A stretch of 47,106 nucleotides of DNA from an uncultured Chloroflexota bacterium. Lineage in GTDB: Bacteria > Chloroflexota > Chloroflexia > Chloroflexales > Chloroflexaceae. Positions within the stretch are counted from its first letter, which is position 1, and each line of letters starts with the position of its first letter. The position numbers and the translations under genes were made by a program. Shown in pieces: positions 2,684 through 9,860 of this stretch. The notes below the pieces were generated by a model. It was not told the DNA's origin. It saw nothing but the letters and a program-made list of their open reading frames with translations, and made no database searches. Location: NCBI GenBank assembly GCA_937120965.1, contig CAKZKA010000257.1:1-47106 (forward strand). The letters are read 5' to 3'.

Positions 2684-3643
2684 TTAGTCGTAGCGTATCC
2701 GCGGGTCAAGAACACCATACAGAACATCAGCAATCAAATTAAAAAACACCACCAGCACCGCAAAAATGAACGTAATCGCCATCACCACCGGCGTGTCAGA
2801 GTTCTGGATCGACTTGATCAGTAACTCCCCGATGCCATTAATGCGAAAGATCTGTTCGGTCACAATCGCGCCGGTGAAGATGGTCGGCACGCCCAGGGCC
2901 AGCAGGGTAACCACGGGGATCATACTGTTGCGAAACACGTGCCGTAACACCACCACCTGCTCGCTGAGACCTTTGGCTCGCGCGGTGCGGGCATAATCCG
3001 CGGGCAGGTTTTCCATCATAGCGGCGCGCACGAAGCGGGTGAGCGAGCCGGTCTGGAACAGGGCCAGCACTGTCACCGGCATGATCATCTGGCGTACCTG
3101 GCGCACAAAGGTCTCCCAATCGGTTACGCGCAGCGTCGAGTCGTAGATAAAGGGCAGCGCGTTCAGGCGCACGGAGAAGATCAGGATGAGCACCAGGCCG
3201 GTGAAGAAGGTCGGCACTGAGAAGCCGATGAAGGCGAAGGTCGTGGCCAGGTTATCGAAGAGCGAGTAGGGCCGCACAGCCGAGATAATGCCGATGGGGA
3301 TGGCAATAAGAATGGAGACCAGATAGGCCACCCCGACCACCTGCAGGGTCTGGGGCAGACGCTGGGCGATCAGGTCCAGCACGGGGACGCGACTGGCGAA
3401 GGAGTAGCCCCAATCGCCCCGGAACAGCGCGGTCAGCCATTTGAAGTAGCGGATGTACCACGGGTCGTTCAGCCCCAGGCTCTCGCGGATCTGCTCGCGC
3501 GCCTCGGGCGGCACCGAGGGATCGGCGGCGAACTGCGCCAACGGGTCACCCGGGGCGAGGGCGAGGATAGCGAAGATCACCAGGCTGATGCCCAGCAGGG
3601 TGGGCACGGCAAAGATCAGGCGGCGGAGGATGTAACGACCCAT
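2684..3643 (-). CDS. Oligopeptide/dipeptide ABC transporter permease, OppB/DppB type
   Basis: The 319 aa permease starts MGRYILRRLIFAVPTLLGIS, the classic OppB/DppB N-terminus. It contains LAPGDP, several hydrophobic segments and the EAA-like loop YARTARAKGLSEQVVVLRHVFRNS. It should pair with the OppC-type permease to form the membrane channel. The ATG at 3643 has no strong Shine-Dalgarno sequence. The stop codon abuts a P-type repeat. Peptide is the default substrate for the family, but nickel, sugars or other oligomers are possible. Confidence 0.93.
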   Translation of the reverse strand: MGRYILRRLIFAVPTLLGISLVIFAILALAPGDPLAQFAADPSVPPEAREQIRESLGLNDPWYIRYFKWLTALFRGDWGYSFASRVPVLDLIAQRLPQTLQVVGVAYLVSILIAIPIGIISAVRPYSLFDNLATTFAFIGFSVPTFFTGLVLILIFSVRLNALPFIYDSTLRVTDWETFVRQVRQMIMPVTVLALFQTGSLTRFVRAAMMENLPADYARTARAKGLSEQVVVLRHVFRNSMIPVVTLLALGVPTIFTGAIVTEQIFRINGIGELLIKSIQNSDTPVVMAITFIFAVLVVFFNLIADVLYGVLDPRIRYD

Positions 3644-3734
3644 GAAGAATCCGTGTGCTTGAAACTGTACATTGTCGCGGTGATAGGCCCCGGGCGGTCA
3701 GGCCATACGCCACGGGAACGAACACGAAGATTTC

Positions 3735-3851
3735 TGGCATAGCCGCGCGCTCCCACACCTTCCTCCGGCAGGGGCCAGGAGAAACCCTCATTCCCCAATA
3801 CGCCGTGCAGCGAGGTGTGGGAGGGCTGCGCCCTCCCACACCCTGCGACCG
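3735..3851. repeat. T/P repeat block between permease and binding protein
   Basis: A T module (GGGAGGGCTGCGCCCTCCC, 3820-3838) and a degenerate P module (about 3780-3798) lie between the binding-protein stop and the OppB-type start. Positions 3644-3734 show no recognisable element. Confidence 0.6.
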
Positions 3852-5684
3852 TCACTTGTACCAGTTGGCAACGTCCCACAACTCCGAGTCCCAGCCGGAG
3901 GGGTTGTAGCCCTGGAGATCCTTGCTGGCGCCGGCAACGCGCGGGCGCGCCACCAGTGGGATCATGGCCACATCGCTGACGATCAGCGCGTCCATCTGGC
4001 GGGCGATCTCCACCCGCTTGTCGGGATCAAGCTCGGCGCGGAGCTGGTCGCAGAGCGCATCGTACTCGGTATTCTGCCAGCGCATATTGTTGGTGCCGCG
4101 CCACTCGTTCTCTTTTTGCGATGCCGCGCTGGAGACCCAGCCGCACAGATGCGCCGTCGGGTCCGGTTCGGGAGCGCCGGTGGTGTACATCTGGATATCG
4201 GCGAAGAAGTGGCCAATATTGTCGGGGTTGCCCGGATCACTGCCGAAGAACACGCTCCCGTCCACGCTCTTCAGTTCCGTCTCCACGCCAATCTCGGCCC
4301 AGTTAGCCTTGATCAACTCCTGGGTCTTCTGGCGCAGGGTGTTGACGCTGGTCTGGAAGAGCAGGCTGAGGCGCACGCCATTCTTCACCCGAATGCCATC
4401 AGCGCCGCGCGTCCAGCCGGCCTCGTCGAGCAACCGGTTGGCCTCATCGATATCCTGATCGCAATCCTTAAAGATATCGGCGATGCTTTCGGCAAACGGC
4501 GGGTACCAGAGAAAGGTGCAGGTCGGATAGCCGGACGGGCCGTAGAGCTGCTCGGCGATGGCTTTGCGATCAATTGCCAGGGCCAGGGCCTGACGCACCT
4601 TCAGGTCGGTCAGGAAGGGATGCGGCTGGCTGAGCTGGCCGCGCTCGTCGCCGAGGGCCGGGTCGGGGTTGGTGAAGTTGATCAGCAGCCGTTCGACATT
4701 GGCCGTGTTGTACGTAACCAGGTTGCCCTGGCCGCCCTGGCTGGCCAACTGCTGCAACACGGCGGCCTCTACCTGCAAGTTCCAGGCCCAGTCTACCTCG
4801 CCAGCTTGCAAGACAGCGCGCGCCGCTGAGGGGGCGTCGCCGCCGCCCTTAAGCTCCACTCGCTTGAAGAAGGGCTTGTCGGGGTCGCGGTAGCGTTCGT
4901 TCAGTTCGTAAATCACCACGTCGCCGGGTTTAAACTCGACCAGCTTGTAGGGACCGGTGCCAATCGGCGCCAGATTGGCAGCCTGGCAATCCGCCGCGGT
5001 CGAGGCGGCTTCACCGACGCAGTCCTCAAACTGAGCCTTCTGAATAATCGCCCCGCGCTGGCTGGTAAACACCTGGTAGGGATAGCTGTTGGGCGCCTCC
5101 CAGGTCACCTTGACCGTATACTCGTCCAGCGCCTCAACCGTCTTGATGCCACGGAAGGCCGCGACGCTCGTACACGCCGTCTTGGGATCAGCGCAGTATT
5201 CATACGTAAACACCACATCGGCGGCGGTGAACGGGCTGCCATCGGACCACTGCACATCTTTGCGCAGCTTCCAAGTGATCGAGGTGAAATCCTGGGCCAC
5301 GCCGCCATTTTCGACGGTAGGGATCTCCTCGGCCAGCATGGGCACGAAGTTGCCCTCAGGATCAATCGCTGCCAGCGGCTCAAGGATCAGCCGCGAGGCA
5401 TCAACGTCTTTGGTTCCGACGGCCAGGTGGTTATTAAGAATGGTGGGCGCCTGCCAGTAGAGAATACGCAGCGTATCACCGGCGCCGCGTCCGGCGCTGG
5501 GCGTGGGCGCCGCGGTGGGCGCAGGAGCCGCGGTGGCTGCAACCGCCGCCGTGGGCGAGGCCGGCGCCGTGGTGGCCGGCGCTGTGGTGGGAGCCTGTGC
5601 CGGGGGAGCGCCGCCACATGCCGCCAGCGCGATTGCGCCGACGAGCACGGCGGCCATTAAGGACCAGATCCGTTGCTGGCTCAC
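3852..5684 (-). CDS. Substrate-binding lipoprotein of an Opp/Dpp-type importer (SBP family 5)
   Basis: The extracellular solute-binding protein of the importer, about 610 aa. The start is taken as GTG at 5684 because AAGGAGGT lies 4 nt upstream; an in-frame TTG six codons further up overlaps that ribosome site. The signal peptide (WSLMAAVLVGAIALAAC) ends in a lipobox with Cys23, so the mature protein is lipid-anchored. An Ala/Pro/Thr linker of about 50 residues follows, then a family 5 binding domain: an early LEPLA(A)I-type segment, WSDGSPFTAADVVFTYEY, and IGTGPYKLVEFKPGD. The C-terminus WDVANWYK is intact. It is the first gene of a three-gene minus-strand operon with a TTGACA promoter element upstream. 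Confidence 0.94.
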   Translation of the reverse strand: MSQQRIWSLMAAVLVGAIALAACGGAPPAQAPTTAPATTAPASPTAAVAATAAPAPTAAPTPSAGRGAGDTLRILYWQAPTILNNHLAVGTKDVDASRLILEPLAAIDPEGNFVPMLAEEIPTVENGGVAQDFTSITWKLRKDVQWSDGSPFTAADVVFTYEYCADPKTACTSVAAFRGIKTVEALDEYTVKVTWEAPNSYPYQVFTSQRGAIIQKAQFEDCVGEAASTAADCQAANLAPIGTGPYKLVEFKPGDVVIYELNERYRDPDKPFFKRVELKGGGDAPSAARAVLQAGEVDWAWNLQVEAAVLQQLASQGGQGNLVTYNTANVERLLINFTNPDPALGDERGQLSQPHPFLTDLKVRQALALAIDRKAIAEQLYGPSGYPTCTFLWYPPFAESIADIFKDCDQDIDEANRLLDEAGWTRGADGIRVKNGVRLSLLFQTSVNTLRQKTQELIKANWAEIGVETELKSVDGSVFFGSDPGNPDNIGHFFADIQMYTTGAPEPDPTAHLCGWVSSAASQKENEWRGTNNMRWQNTEYDALCDQLRAELDPDKRVEIARQMDALIVSDVAMIPLVARPRVAGASKDLQGYNPSGWDSELWDVANWYK

Positions 5685-5937
5685 GTTGACCTCCTTAAGC
5701 AATCCAGGGAAACAACCTGCGCTTCAGAGCGGTGTACGGCTGCGCTTTAACCGCTGGCCCGGGGCAAGGGGGAACCCCGGTGGGGCGAAAGATCTTTCGC
5801 CCCGGCTGGGGGGCCGGGAAGCGACGGGCCCCGCGAGAGCCAGGCCCTCCTGACTCCTCCTCCGGACAGGGGCGGAGTGCGACTCCCAAACCCTGTTCTG
5901 CGCCTGTCACACGCTACTGGATACAGATTATTCGGTA

Positions 5938-6326: not shown

Positions 6327-7772
6327 TTAAGGCGCCGGCGCGGCTTCGGGCGTGCCAGCGCGGTCTCGGCGGAAGACGATGCGACCGCCAGCCATGGTCA
6401 GCAGTACCTGGCCCTTGAGGCGCTGGCCGTGCAGAGGGGTATTCTGGCCTCGCGAGACGAAGCGCGTCGCGTCCACCGTCCAGGTGGCATCGGGATCAAA
6501 GATGACGATGTCGGCGCGTGCGCCGGGGCGCAACGTGGCCGGGGAACGGTCGAGTACCTGGGCGGGTCCTTCCGTCAGCCTGGCAACGAGATCCACCAGG
6601 TCCATCTCGCCACGATGCACCAGCGAGAGCACCAGGGCCAGGGCCGTCTCCAGGCCGCTGATGCCGGGCGCGGCCAGTCCGTATTCGCACTCCTTTTCAA
6701 CCCGCGATTGAGGGCTGTGGCCGGTGGCAATGGCGTCAATAGTGCCGTCGCGCAGTCCCTCGGCCAGGGCCTCCAGGTCTTCCTCGGTCCGCAGCGGTGG
6801 GCAGACACGGGTGCTCGGGTCGTAGGGCGGCAGGCGGGTGGCGTCGAACCAGGACGGCAGGCCCAGCTCGGGGTGCGGGCTGCGCTTGCGGCCTGGCCGG
6901 GACTGGGGAGGCGGCGGTGGATCGTGCGCGGCAAGGCTGCCCAGCACCCAGCGATCGGTGAGCGTCAGATGGTGCGGCGACACGTCGGCGGTAACGCGCA
7001 CGCCGCGGGCCCTGGCGGCGCGAATGAGGCTCACGCCACCCGCGGTACTCACCTGGCAGATGTGCAGATGGGCGCCGGTCAGTTCGGCCAGGGCAATGTC
7101 CCGGGCGATCAGCGCCTCTTCGGCGGCGGCGGGGAAGCCTGGCAACCCCAGGCGCGTGCTCACTGCGCCTTCGTGCATGGCCCAGCCGGCGCTCAACCGC
7201 GCTTCCTGGCCCAGGCTCATCACCGGTAAGCCCAGGGCAGCGGCATAGGTCAGCGCATGCCGCATCAACGCGCTGTCGCTCAATGCTCGATCGCCATCAC
7301 TGAAGGCGATACACCCGGCCTCGGCCAGTTCGGCCAGGTCGGCCAGCGCGCGCCCCTCACGGCCCACGGTTAGCGCGCCTACAACATCAACGTGCACGTG
7401 ACCTTCGCGGCGGGCCAGCTCCTGCACCAGACGCACCGTCGCTGCGGTATCGTGGGTGGGATAAACCGTGGGCATAGCGCAGACAGTGGTGAAGCCACCG
7501 TGGGCTGCGGCCAGGGTGCCGCTGGCTATGGTCTCTTTGTGCTCTTCGCCCGGCTGGCGCAGGTAGGCGTGGAGATCGGTGAAGCCTGGCGCCACCACCG
7601 CCCCGCGGGCATCAATGATCTCAACATCGTCACCCACCATGTGCTGCTCCGCGGCCCGGTCGGCGATCTCGAAGAGACGCTCTACCTTGCCGTCGGTCAC
7701 CAGCACATCTCCCACCGTGGCAACCCGCTGCGTCGGATCGATGATGGAGCCATTCCTGATCAGATAGCGCAT
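6327..7772 (-). CDS. pyrC': Dihydroorotase-like protein PyrC', predicted catalytically inactive
   Basis: The 481 aa protein has the class I dihydroorotase fold: N-terminal small beta domain, barrel entry GFTDLHAYLRQPGEE, and FSDGDRALSDSALMRHAL. Key metal and catalytic residues are replaced. The HxH motif is HAY (68-70), the barrel histidine of PVxxHxED is Leu187, the histidine of HICHVST is Gln240, and the aspartate of ATDHAPH is Gly351. The Asn of the NPPLR loop is Cys (RVCPPLR). A proline-rich insertion lies around residues 281-314. Known inactive PyrC' proteins, for example in Pseudomonas, are encoded beside pyrB and serve as structural partners of aspartate carbamoyltransferase. That is the likely role here. 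It starts 30 nt after pyrB. A functional dihydroorotase must be encoded elsewhere. Confidence 0.88.
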   Translation of the reverse strand: MRYLIRNGSIIDPTQRVATVGDVLVTDGKVERLFEIADRAAEQHMVGDDVEIIDARGAVVAPGFTDLHAYLRQPGEEHKETIASGTLAAAHGGFTTVCAMPTVYPTHDTAATVRLVQELARREGHVHVDVVGALTVGREGRALADLAELAEAGCIAFSDGDRALSDSALMRHALTYAAALGLPVMSLGQEARLSAGWAMHEGAVSTRLGLPGFPAAAEEALIARDIALAELTGAHLHICQVSTAGGVSLIRAARARGVRVTADVSPHHLTLTDRWVLGSLAAHDPPPPPQSRPGRKRSPHPELGLPSWFDATRLPPYDPSTRVCPPLRTEEDLEALAEGLRDGTIDAIATGHSPQSRVEKECEYGLAAPGISGLETALALVLSLVHRGEMDLVDLVARLTEGPAQVLDRSPATLRPGARADIVIFDPDATWTVDATRFVSRGQNTPLHGQRLKGQVLLTMAGGRIVFRRDRAGTPEAAPAP

Positions 7773-7802: not shown

Positions 7803-8747
7803 TTATCCTGCCAGGCGGTACAACAGGGCCATCCGCACGGCGACGCCGTTGGTCACCTGCTCTTCGATGACCGCATTTGGAGCGGTCGCGGCCTCGGGTG
7901 AGATCTCGACGCCCTCATTCATCGGGCCAGGGTGCATGATCAACACACGTTCGCCAAGCCGCGCCAGCCGTTCGGGGTTCAGCCCGTACAGCCGGGTATA
8001 CTCGCGCAACGACGGCAGCAGACCGGCCTGCTGTCGCTCTTTCTGCAAGCGCAGGGCCATCACCACATCGGCGCTGCTCAACACCTCGTCGAGATGATAG
8101 GAGACCCTCACCTCCGGCCAGGTCGCCGTCCAGTAGGCCGGCGGGCCGAGCAGCGTCGCCGGCCCGCAGAGGGTCACCCGGGCGCCCATGCGTGTGAGGC
8201 CCCAGAGATTTGAGCGGGCCACGCGGCTATGGATAATGTCGCCGAGGATGAGCACGTGGACGCCGTGGATCTGGCCGAGGCGTTCGCGAATGGTGAAGAG
8301 ATCGAGCAACGCCTGGGTGGGGTGGGCGTGGCGCCCGTCGCCGGCGTTGATCACCGAGCCGCGGAAGTGCCGGGCCACCAGGTACGGGGCGCCAGCCTGG
8401 CTGTGGCGGATCACCACAATATCGGCGCCCAGGGCCTGGAGTGTGCGCACAGTGTCAACCAGAGACTCGCCCTTCTCGACGCTGCTCCCGCGGGCGCTGA
8501 AGTTGACGATATTCGCCGAGAGGGCGCGGGCGGCCAGCTCGAACGAGATGCGCGTGCGGGTGCTATCTTCGTAGAACATATTCACAATGGTGCGCCCGCG
8601 CAGGGCCGGTACCTGCTTGATCTCGCGGGAGAGCACTTCCTTCATGCTCTCAGCCGTCGTGAGGATCTCCTCGATCTCGGTTGATGAAAAATCGTCCAGA
8701 TCAATCGCGTGGCGGCGGCGAGGGTGTTCCGTCGAGGATGGTGCCAT
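7803..8747 (-). CDS. pyrB: Aspartate carbamoyltransferase catalytic subunit
   Basis: It catalyses carbamoyl phosphate plus aspartate to carbamoyl aspartate, the second step of de novo pyrimidine synthesis. The 314 aa protein has the carbamoyl-phosphate motif STRTR (62-66), SSVEKGESL (88-96), HPTQALLD (142-149), the aspartate-domain GDIIHSRVARSN, and HPGPMNEGVEI near the C-terminus. All catalytic motifs look intact. It lies 35 nt after pyrR and 30 nt before pyrC'. The inactive PyrC' next door suggests a dodecameric PyrB-PyrC' complex as in Pseudomonas. No regulatory-chain gene (pyrI) is seen. Confidence 0.97.
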   Translation of the reverse strand: MAPSSTEHPRRRHAIDLDDFSSTEIEEILTTAESMKEVLSREIKQVPALRGRTIVNMFYEDSTRTRISFELAARALSANIVNFSARGSSVEKGESLVDTVRTLQALGADIVVIRHSQAGAPYLVARHFRGSVINAGDGRHAHPTQALLDLFTIRERLGQIHGVHVLILGDIIHSRVARSNLWGLTRMGARVTLCGPATLLGPPAYWTATWPEVRVSYHLDEVLSSADVVMALRLQKERQQAGLLPSLREYTRLYGLNPERLARLGERVLIMHPGPMNEGVEISPEAATAPNAVIEEQVTNGVAVRMALLYRLAG

Positions 8748-8782: not shown

Positions 8783-9328
<546 letters not shown>

Positions 9329-9344
9329 TTAATTGCCCCTGGAC

Positions 9345-9860
9345 ATTTAACGTGAACATATGGGGAACCCGGGGTTCCCCACGCCCCTGCCTGCCGGGGC
9401 GTCAGGCACCCCCACCTCCGGTTGGGGGATGGGCAACTCGGGGTTCCCCTTTCTTTCAGGGGTAGAGTTTTTTGGGCCACGGCGGCTTTGTCCTCACCCC
9501 CCTGTCCCCCTCTCCCTGAGCGGGAGAGGGGGAGGATCTTCCCCCCTGCCCCCCGCGCTAGCCGAGCTGGAGCGGGAGGATCAGCCTGCTCCCGCCCCCC
9601 TCTCCACCGTAGGTGGAGAGGGGGGAAGGGGGGGTGAGGACCTGCCCACACCTGAGCGCCAGCGATCCTACGGACCCACAGAGCGGTTGAGGGCAACTCA
9701 GGCGGCTTTGTCCTCACCCCCCGCCCCCCTCCCAACTTGTGGGTAATGCACAGCCCGCCAGGGAGAGGGGGGAACGGGCTTAGGGACGCCCCATGTGGAC
9801 TCTCCCTCTCCCGCTCAGAGCCGGGGGGTGAGGACTTGCGACAGCCATGGCTTCCTGATG
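9345..9860. repeat. Repeat-rich spacer between pyr attenuator and pyrR
   Basis: It starts with GTGAACATATGGGGAACCC (P module, about 9351-9380) and a second P-like copy (9432-9450). Then follow at least four C/T-rich hairpins of the type CCCTCTCCxxxGGAGAGGGG (about 9495-9640 and 9715-9830). The strand asymmetry (long polypyrimidine runs on plus, polypurine on minus) is marked. No protein-like frame was found; frames through it are translated repeat. Confidence 0.7.

Follow-up and report, generated by a model that had tools for sequence, protein, structure and literature searches.

A pyrB-linked dihydroorotase homologue with an eroded active site in Chloroflexales, probably retained as a structural partner of aspartate carbamoyltransferase

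Known pseudo-dihydroorotases come from Pseudomonas, rhizobia and fungi. The aspartate carbamoyltransferases (ATCases) of P. putida and P. aeruginosa belong to class A2, in which, as the papers on these enzymes describe it, PyrB is paired with a dihydroorotase homologue (PyrC′) that has lost active-site residues, an active dihydroorotase being encoded elsewhere. The P. aeruginosa catalytic chain is described as monomeric and inactive until the inactive homologue, pDHO, joins it (PMC7053772). The same source describes a pseudo-DHO domain in fungal Ura2/CAD-like proteins that has lost zinc and substrate residues while keeping the fold. In Sinorhizobium meliloti, smc01361 (PyrX), a proposed inactive dihydroorotase, adjoins pyrB, with an essential PyrC elsewhere, and its disruption results in pyrimidine auxotrophy (PMC5929573). 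Both of these systems are likened here by description; the former is a eukaryotic domain fused to CPSase and ATCase, the latter an alphaproteobacterial protein. Class A1 is represented by the ATCase-dihydroorotase of Aquifex aeolicus (3D6N, 4BJH), whose dihydroorotase retains the zinc site and works as an enzyme within the complex, according to PMC3880350. Loss of zinc ligands does not by itself prove inactivity, since a Pseudomonas PyrC paralogue lacking the conserved zinc residues was reported to be active (PMC2770081) and His180 and His232 of the Aquifex enzyme could be changed to alanine without loss of activity (PMC3880350).

The locus described here lies in a 47,106-nucleotide stretch (the window) from an uncultured bacterium of the Chloroflexales, where three genes form a cluster in the order pyrR-pyrB-pyrC′:

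8783..9325, minus strand: pyrR, pyr operon regulator / uracil phosphoribosyltransferase (NF003549, 244.4 bits, cut-off 138)
7803..8747, minus strand: pyrB, aspartate carbamoyltransferase catalytic chain, 314 amino acids (NF002032, 397.6 bits, cut-off 263)
6327..7772, minus strand: pyrC′, class I dihydroorotase homologue with an eroded active site, 481 amino acids (alignment, profile match and predicted fold)

The original prediction of an intact reading frame 30 nt after pyrB was borne out: the frame runs on the minus strand from an ATG at 7772 to 6327 (481 codons), the plus strand across the same interval being interrupted by stops. Homology to class I dihydroorotases is clear from the match to the PDB entry 3d6n_A (E 2.2e-92). 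It had also been anticipated that automatic annotation would name the gene pyrC, and indeed the TIGR00857 dihydroorotase model scores 351.7 bits against a cut-off of 279.05. PyrC′ falls below every equivalog cut-off among the 25 of 46 NCBIfam families listed. No known RNA element was found in the window at gathering threshold. Past the 3′ end of pyrC′, positions 2684-5702 hold minus-strand open reading frames whose translations resemble a peptide ABC transporter permease and a solute-binding protein. On the other side, the GC-rich segment directly upstream of pyrR (9326-9600) is part of a dispersed repeat with at least 76 matches in the same genome, itself included (40 of 839 first-look candidates were scored); several copies are in tandem, for example at C56:3195-4028.

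Active-site positions were read against the Aquifex and Bacillus anthracis enzymes, then in a multiple alignment, and are given in Aquifex numbering. Five of the six metal-site residues are altered in PyrC′ (H63Y, D153G, H180L, H232Q and D305G), H61 being kept as H68. At the substrate site, which we take to comprise R65, N95 and H309, two of the three positions are changed (N95T, residue T102; H309Q, residue Q355) and R65 is kept as R72. The metal-site and catalytic changes fall at the following codons:

7563..7571, minus strand: codons 68-70, H-A-Y instead of H-x-H (His61/His63 of Aquifex), from sequence and alignment
7293..7295, minus strand: codon 160, Gly instead of the metal ligand Asp153, from alignment
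7212..7214, minus strand: codon 187, Leu instead of His180, from alignment
7053..7055, minus strand: codon 240, Gln instead of His232, from alignment
6720..6722, minus strand: codon 351, Gly instead of the catalytic Asp305, from alignment

The roles of H61, H63, D153, D305, H180 and H232 are those given for the Aquifex enzyme in PMC3880350. Among the four residues expected of an active class I dihydroorotase (H61, H63, D153 and D305), only the first persists, the others being replaced by Y70, G160 and G351. These three losses matter most, because H180 and H232 are dispensable for activity in Aquifex. Four changes had been named in the original prediction (HxH to H68-A-Y70, L187, Q240 and G351); alignment with Aquifex PyrC confirms each of them and brings the number of lost ligands to five, as Asp153 (G160) is gone too.

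The same prediction drew attention to a proline-rich insertion. The insertion exists, spanning 56 residues where Aquifex has 18 (sites 262 to 279), and part of it is predicted to be disordered:

6852..6920, minus strand: codons 285-307, the low-confidence segment (pLDDT below 50) of the proline-rich insertion, whose length is equalled by inserts in several intact relatives

Inserts of 56-68 residues also occur in six relatives with intact active sites (G010, G011, G017, G018, G027 and G071), other intact relatives having 36-41 residues. Being carried by many intact relatives and predicted to be disordered, the insertion is no mark of inactivity, and it was discarded as such. An AlphaFold2 model of PyrC′ built from 30 sequences (mean pLDDT 90.2, pTM 0.90) gave its best PDB matches by Z score with Aquifex chains 4bjh_A (Z 58.5) and 3d6n_A (Z 57.9), the predicted fold superimposing with an rmsd of 1.4-1.5 over 421 residues. 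Both chains are dihydroorotases solved in complex with aspartate transcarbamoylase. Foldseek placed B. anthracis 4yiw_A first, with 4bjh_A and 3d6n_A second and third. Fewer residues align with the free Aquifex forms, whose loops are disordered in the crystals, so that the Z ranking is by itself no proof of a bound state.

The check for a second pyrC with intact ligands turned up a type II dihydroorotase in the same genome (G000:C258:28590-29570), scoring 349.2 bits with TIGR00856 (pyrC_dimer; cut-off 292.95). Its six ligand positions, named after E. coli His16, His18, Lys102, His139, His177 and Asp250 (PMC2770081), read HHKHHD and are all intact. This motif recurs in 43 of the 45 type II rows compared, the exceptions being the G072 copy, truncated by the end of its contig, and a disrupted gene from Sulfurovum. 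A class I paralogue on contig C61 was rejected as the active dihydroorotase, scoring 184 bits where the TIGR00857 cut-off is 279; we take its motifs to be dihydropyrimidinase-like.

We consider it very probable that the pyrC′ product is a class I dihydroorotase without catalytic activity, kept as a structural partner for PyrB, as in class A2 ATCases. Four traits of that class were found here: homology and predicted fold are those of class I dihydroorotases, zinc and substrate residues are lost, the gene is adjacent to pyrB and maintained, and a separate dihydroorotase with intact ligands is present in the genome. Both the pairing with PyrB and the absence of activity are suggested by the sequence comparisons.

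The relationship between erosion and the replacement enzyme was surveyed in 82 Chloroflexales genomes, accepting PyrC matches at E ≤ 1e-60 and type II matches at E ≤ 1e-30. A PyrC orthologue was found in 69 genomes and a type II enzyme in 40. Sites were scored as intact or eroded at nine positions, six from the metal site and three from the substrate site. All 36 genomes with both genes have an eroded PyrC and none an intact one; among the 33 PyrC genomes with no detected type II gene, 30 are intact and three eroded (Fisher p 1.7e-16, a value that ignores kinship, with G020, G039 and G075 scored on partial genes). The three exceptions each have a distinguishing feature. In G025 the first 42 residues of a type II enzyme are present, cut at a contig end. 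G005 is the sole genome of the 82 with a PRK09236-type dihydroorotase (723.7 bits, cut-off 535). G004 is represented by an assembly 84% complete; its congeners, the window genome and three more, have the type II gene. When G025 and G005 are counted as having a replacement enzyme, erosion goes with its presence in every one of the 61 full-length rows, and no genome in which both enzymes are readable has both intact. On the tree, these data yield two independent contrasts on starred branches and four on all branches (sign test p 0.5), too few for the sign test to decide. In a further alignment of 82 rows (the best 80 loci, Aquifex and the window), 66 rows are fully intact, 15 are eroded and one (L162) has an unreadable residue; the eroded rows are the window and loci of Chloroflexales.

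Thirteen genomes lack a PyrC match at 1e-60. In G006, G014 and G068, pyrB lies no more than 217 bases from a contig end; G009, G072 and G073 are without a pyrB match as well; the six genomes of family f2 have a different pyrB, with another dihydroorotase-like gene beside it in five; the remaining genome is G070. Those bearing the type II gene are G014 and G068, with pyrB at a contig end, and G009 and G072, with no pyrB match. Among the 82 genomes, none with the type II enzyme was seen to keep pyrB while demonstrably missing pyrC′. The PyrB of family f2 (L092, L094, L096 and L098, from G037, G040, G043 and G049) shows 35-38% identity, and the dihydroorotase-like gene of the family is shorter and carries the motifs HxH and DHAPH. 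A dihydroorotase-like match adjoins the f2-type PyrB in G037, G043, G046, G049 and G052.

Intact relatives of the window protein reach 70% identity, and the sites of relatives roughly 50 to 91% identical to it range from intact through half-eroded to fully eroded, in most cases with the same pyrB alongside. In the tree (built without G004, G013, G019, G020, G039, G075, G078 and G080, whose genes are short or broken), the window protein nests among intact relatives, which places the loss of the active site within Chloroflexales. Leaving out G020, G039 and G075, which have gaps at scored sites, 97 columns are invariant in 28 intact relatives and 51 of them still so in 38 eroded sequences. The most often altered of the 97 are N95, D153, H309, H232 and D305, in groups that are themselves defined by these sites. 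When the same rows were grouped by presence of the type II gene instead (35 versus 28 rows, the type II-free group leaving out G004, G005 and G025), N95, D153, H309 and H232 were the four most altered of 141 conserved columns. The nine scored sites are more altered than the other 132 columns (Mann-Whitney p 2.7e-5, indicative only as the sequences are related), and none of 100000 random sets of nine columns was altered as strongly. Within this pattern H61 is unaltered, and the non-ligand columns P156, M172 and T77 are altered nearly as much.

The residues lost differ from genus to genus. The six metal-site residues read HYGLQG in the window, HHGSRD in g9, HQDHQG in g5, HHGTID in g31, HYAHHN in G045 and HHEHHD in g23 and g27 of family f4; the last, nearly complete metal site is that of the eroded sequences G042, G048, G051, G054, G056 and G060. 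Among the 27 eroded members of family f1 that were scored, no altered residue is common to all, N95 being altered in 26. The tree requires at least eight changes at D153, ten at N95 and four at D305, and an AU test rejected a single clade of eroded rows (p 0.005). This pattern is what would be expected if a relaxation of selection was shared and decay then ran its course independently in each lineage; for N95, altered in nearly all of f1, a single founding change early in that family may also have occurred. One eroded pair, G066 and G067 (L110 and L111), sits on a very long stem branch of 1.34 changes per column in the PyrC+PyrB tree and has a shorter insert of 35 residues.

These data bear on the possibility that pyrC′ still encodes a dihydroorotase with a rebuilt or metal-independent site, like the Pseudomonas paralogue, which is predicted to be expressed under zinc limitation. 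The reported activity of that paralogue without zinc residues (PMC2770081) gives the idea a precedent, and in the window protein an aspartate (Asp161, in the motif SDGD) adjoins the lost Asp153 position. That aspartate, however, is present in only 6 of 38 eroded sequences, and the replacements vary by genus (G, A or E at 153; L, F, C, S, T or Y at 180), unlike what a conserved new site would show. With the catalytic Asp305 and the substrate-site residues N95 and H309 gone as well, and a type II enzyme with full ligands in the genome, we regard continued activity as improbable.

Selection was gauged by pairwise Nei-Gojobori dN/dS. In pairs of eroded genes the ratio is 0.02-0.22, similar to that of the adjacent pyrB, in a set that includes pairs at synonymous distances above 1, where values are rough, and excludes saturated pairs, which give none. 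Within the window genus (four genomes, six pairs), it is 0.086-0.117 for pyrC′ and 0.048-0.119 for pyrB; intact groups give 0.004-0.158. In all 36 type II-bearing genomes that have it, pyrC′ lies on the same strand directly behind pyrB (gaps of 7-457 nt), and in the 33 other genomes the 24 pyrB-pyrC gaps measured range from 12 to 668 nt. Genus g20 (G038, G041, G047, G050, G053 and G055) has an intact pyrC that is unlinked to pyrB, unlike the eroded lineages.

Such strong purifying selection could also be expected if the pocket had been reused and PyrC′ were a regulatory subunit, binding a nucleotide or an intermediate and tuning PyrB as PyrI does in E. coli; H68, P101, H268, R328 and H352 are invariant in the intact and eroded sets alike. 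Pocket substitutions are nonetheless heterogeneous across genera, and the nucleotide effects seen in P. aeruginosa are ascribed in PMC7053772 to destabilisation of the complex, not to allostery, so that we give this idea little credence. A decaying pseudogene, its frame open only through recent inactivation, is hardly credible: a functional replacement does exist and the G020 frame is split, as is pyrB in that genome, yet 35 of the 36 type II-bearing genomes that carry the gene have an open frame, and dN/dS, even in pairs at synonymous distance above 1, led us to reject it.

The proposal of a structural partner for PyrB is thus the one best served by the data: the second dihydroorotase, the low dN/dS, the invariant adjacency to pyrB and the match of the predicted fold all argue for it, as far as sequences and a model can. 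By analogy, PyrC′ of the window would have the same role toward PyrB as its counterparts in P. aeruginosa and S. meliloti. An ancestor within the order would have acquired the type II dihydroorotase, relieving PyrC of catalysis; catalytic residues would then have been lost independently in the descendant lineages, while selection continued to preserve the surfaces by which PyrB trimers are held together. PyrC′ and PyrB would form a PyrB6-PyrC′6 dodecamer, with PyrC′ lending stability to the PyrB trimer, in which an active site is shared between two subunits. Carbamoyl aspartate would be produced by this complex and cyclised to dihydroorotate by the type II enzyme encoded elsewhere.

As to where that enzyme came from, it was found in 27 of 400 genomes drawn from the phylum, all 27 in families f1 and f4 of Chloroflexales. 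The type II genes of 40 order members cluster together in the tree with a support of only 84/86, f1 and f4 being mostly sorted. Outside the order, the nearest relatives are in Campylobacterota (C. jejuni 3pnu_A, E 1.1e-111, the next match being at 3.6e-66); in the listed 25 of 124 plasmid records, identity is 56.9% with Sulfurovum, 54.0% with Aliarcobacter and at most 43.6% with others. The outgroup of the tree consisted of five plasmid-borne genes, two of them on meeting long branches and one (Sulfurovum) broken and matched in two pieces. Because this outgroup is small, with long branches and a broken copy, the tree fixes neither the donor nor the number of transfers. The simplest reading is one gain before the f1/f4 split, followed by losses of either activity; alternatively, the type II gene may have been transferred repeatedly within the order. 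On balance we lean towards a history in which the ancestor of the two families received a type II enzyme with Campylobacterota-like affinity. Daughter lineages that later shed it would have preserved the original active site, whereas in those that retained it the original site would have decayed. The PRK09236-type enzyme would have repeated the decay in one lineage, and class A1 would have turned into class A2 repeatedly and in parallel. PyrC′ would have been kept all along because PyrB depends on it as a scaffold.

Compared with Pseudomonas PyrC′, the window type arose within Chloroflexales, nested among intact relatives; it differs further in that Chloroflexales genera lost different residues, in its long disordered insert, and in an assembly deduced here from the genes. 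Since the loss arose within Chloroflexales, the likeness to Pseudomonas PyrC′ would be convergent, judging from the Chloroflexales tree. With the Aquifex class A1 complex the window protein shares the predicted fold (Z about 58 over 421 residues) and an expected pairing with PyrB; it differs from the Aquifex enzyme by the loss of the zinc site. The kind of protein is already known; what is new is its origin within Chloroflexales, the graded intermediates and the near-perfect association with a replacement enzyme. We know of no comparable graded series in Pseudomonas, rhizobia or fungi. A literature search on Chloroflexi dihydroorotase in pyrimidine biosynthesis found no paper and no title naming a Chloroflexota case (Labedan et al. 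2004 may mention Chloroflexus).

As a curated family model, TIGR00857, labels PyrC′ a dihydroorotase, metabolic reconstructions of Chloroflexales that follow this name would be misled. Beyond annotation, the order offers intact, half-eroded and fully eroded relatives together with an identifiable likely trigger, the replacement enzyme, and with this series the order of events by which an enzyme turns into a scaffold becomes testable.
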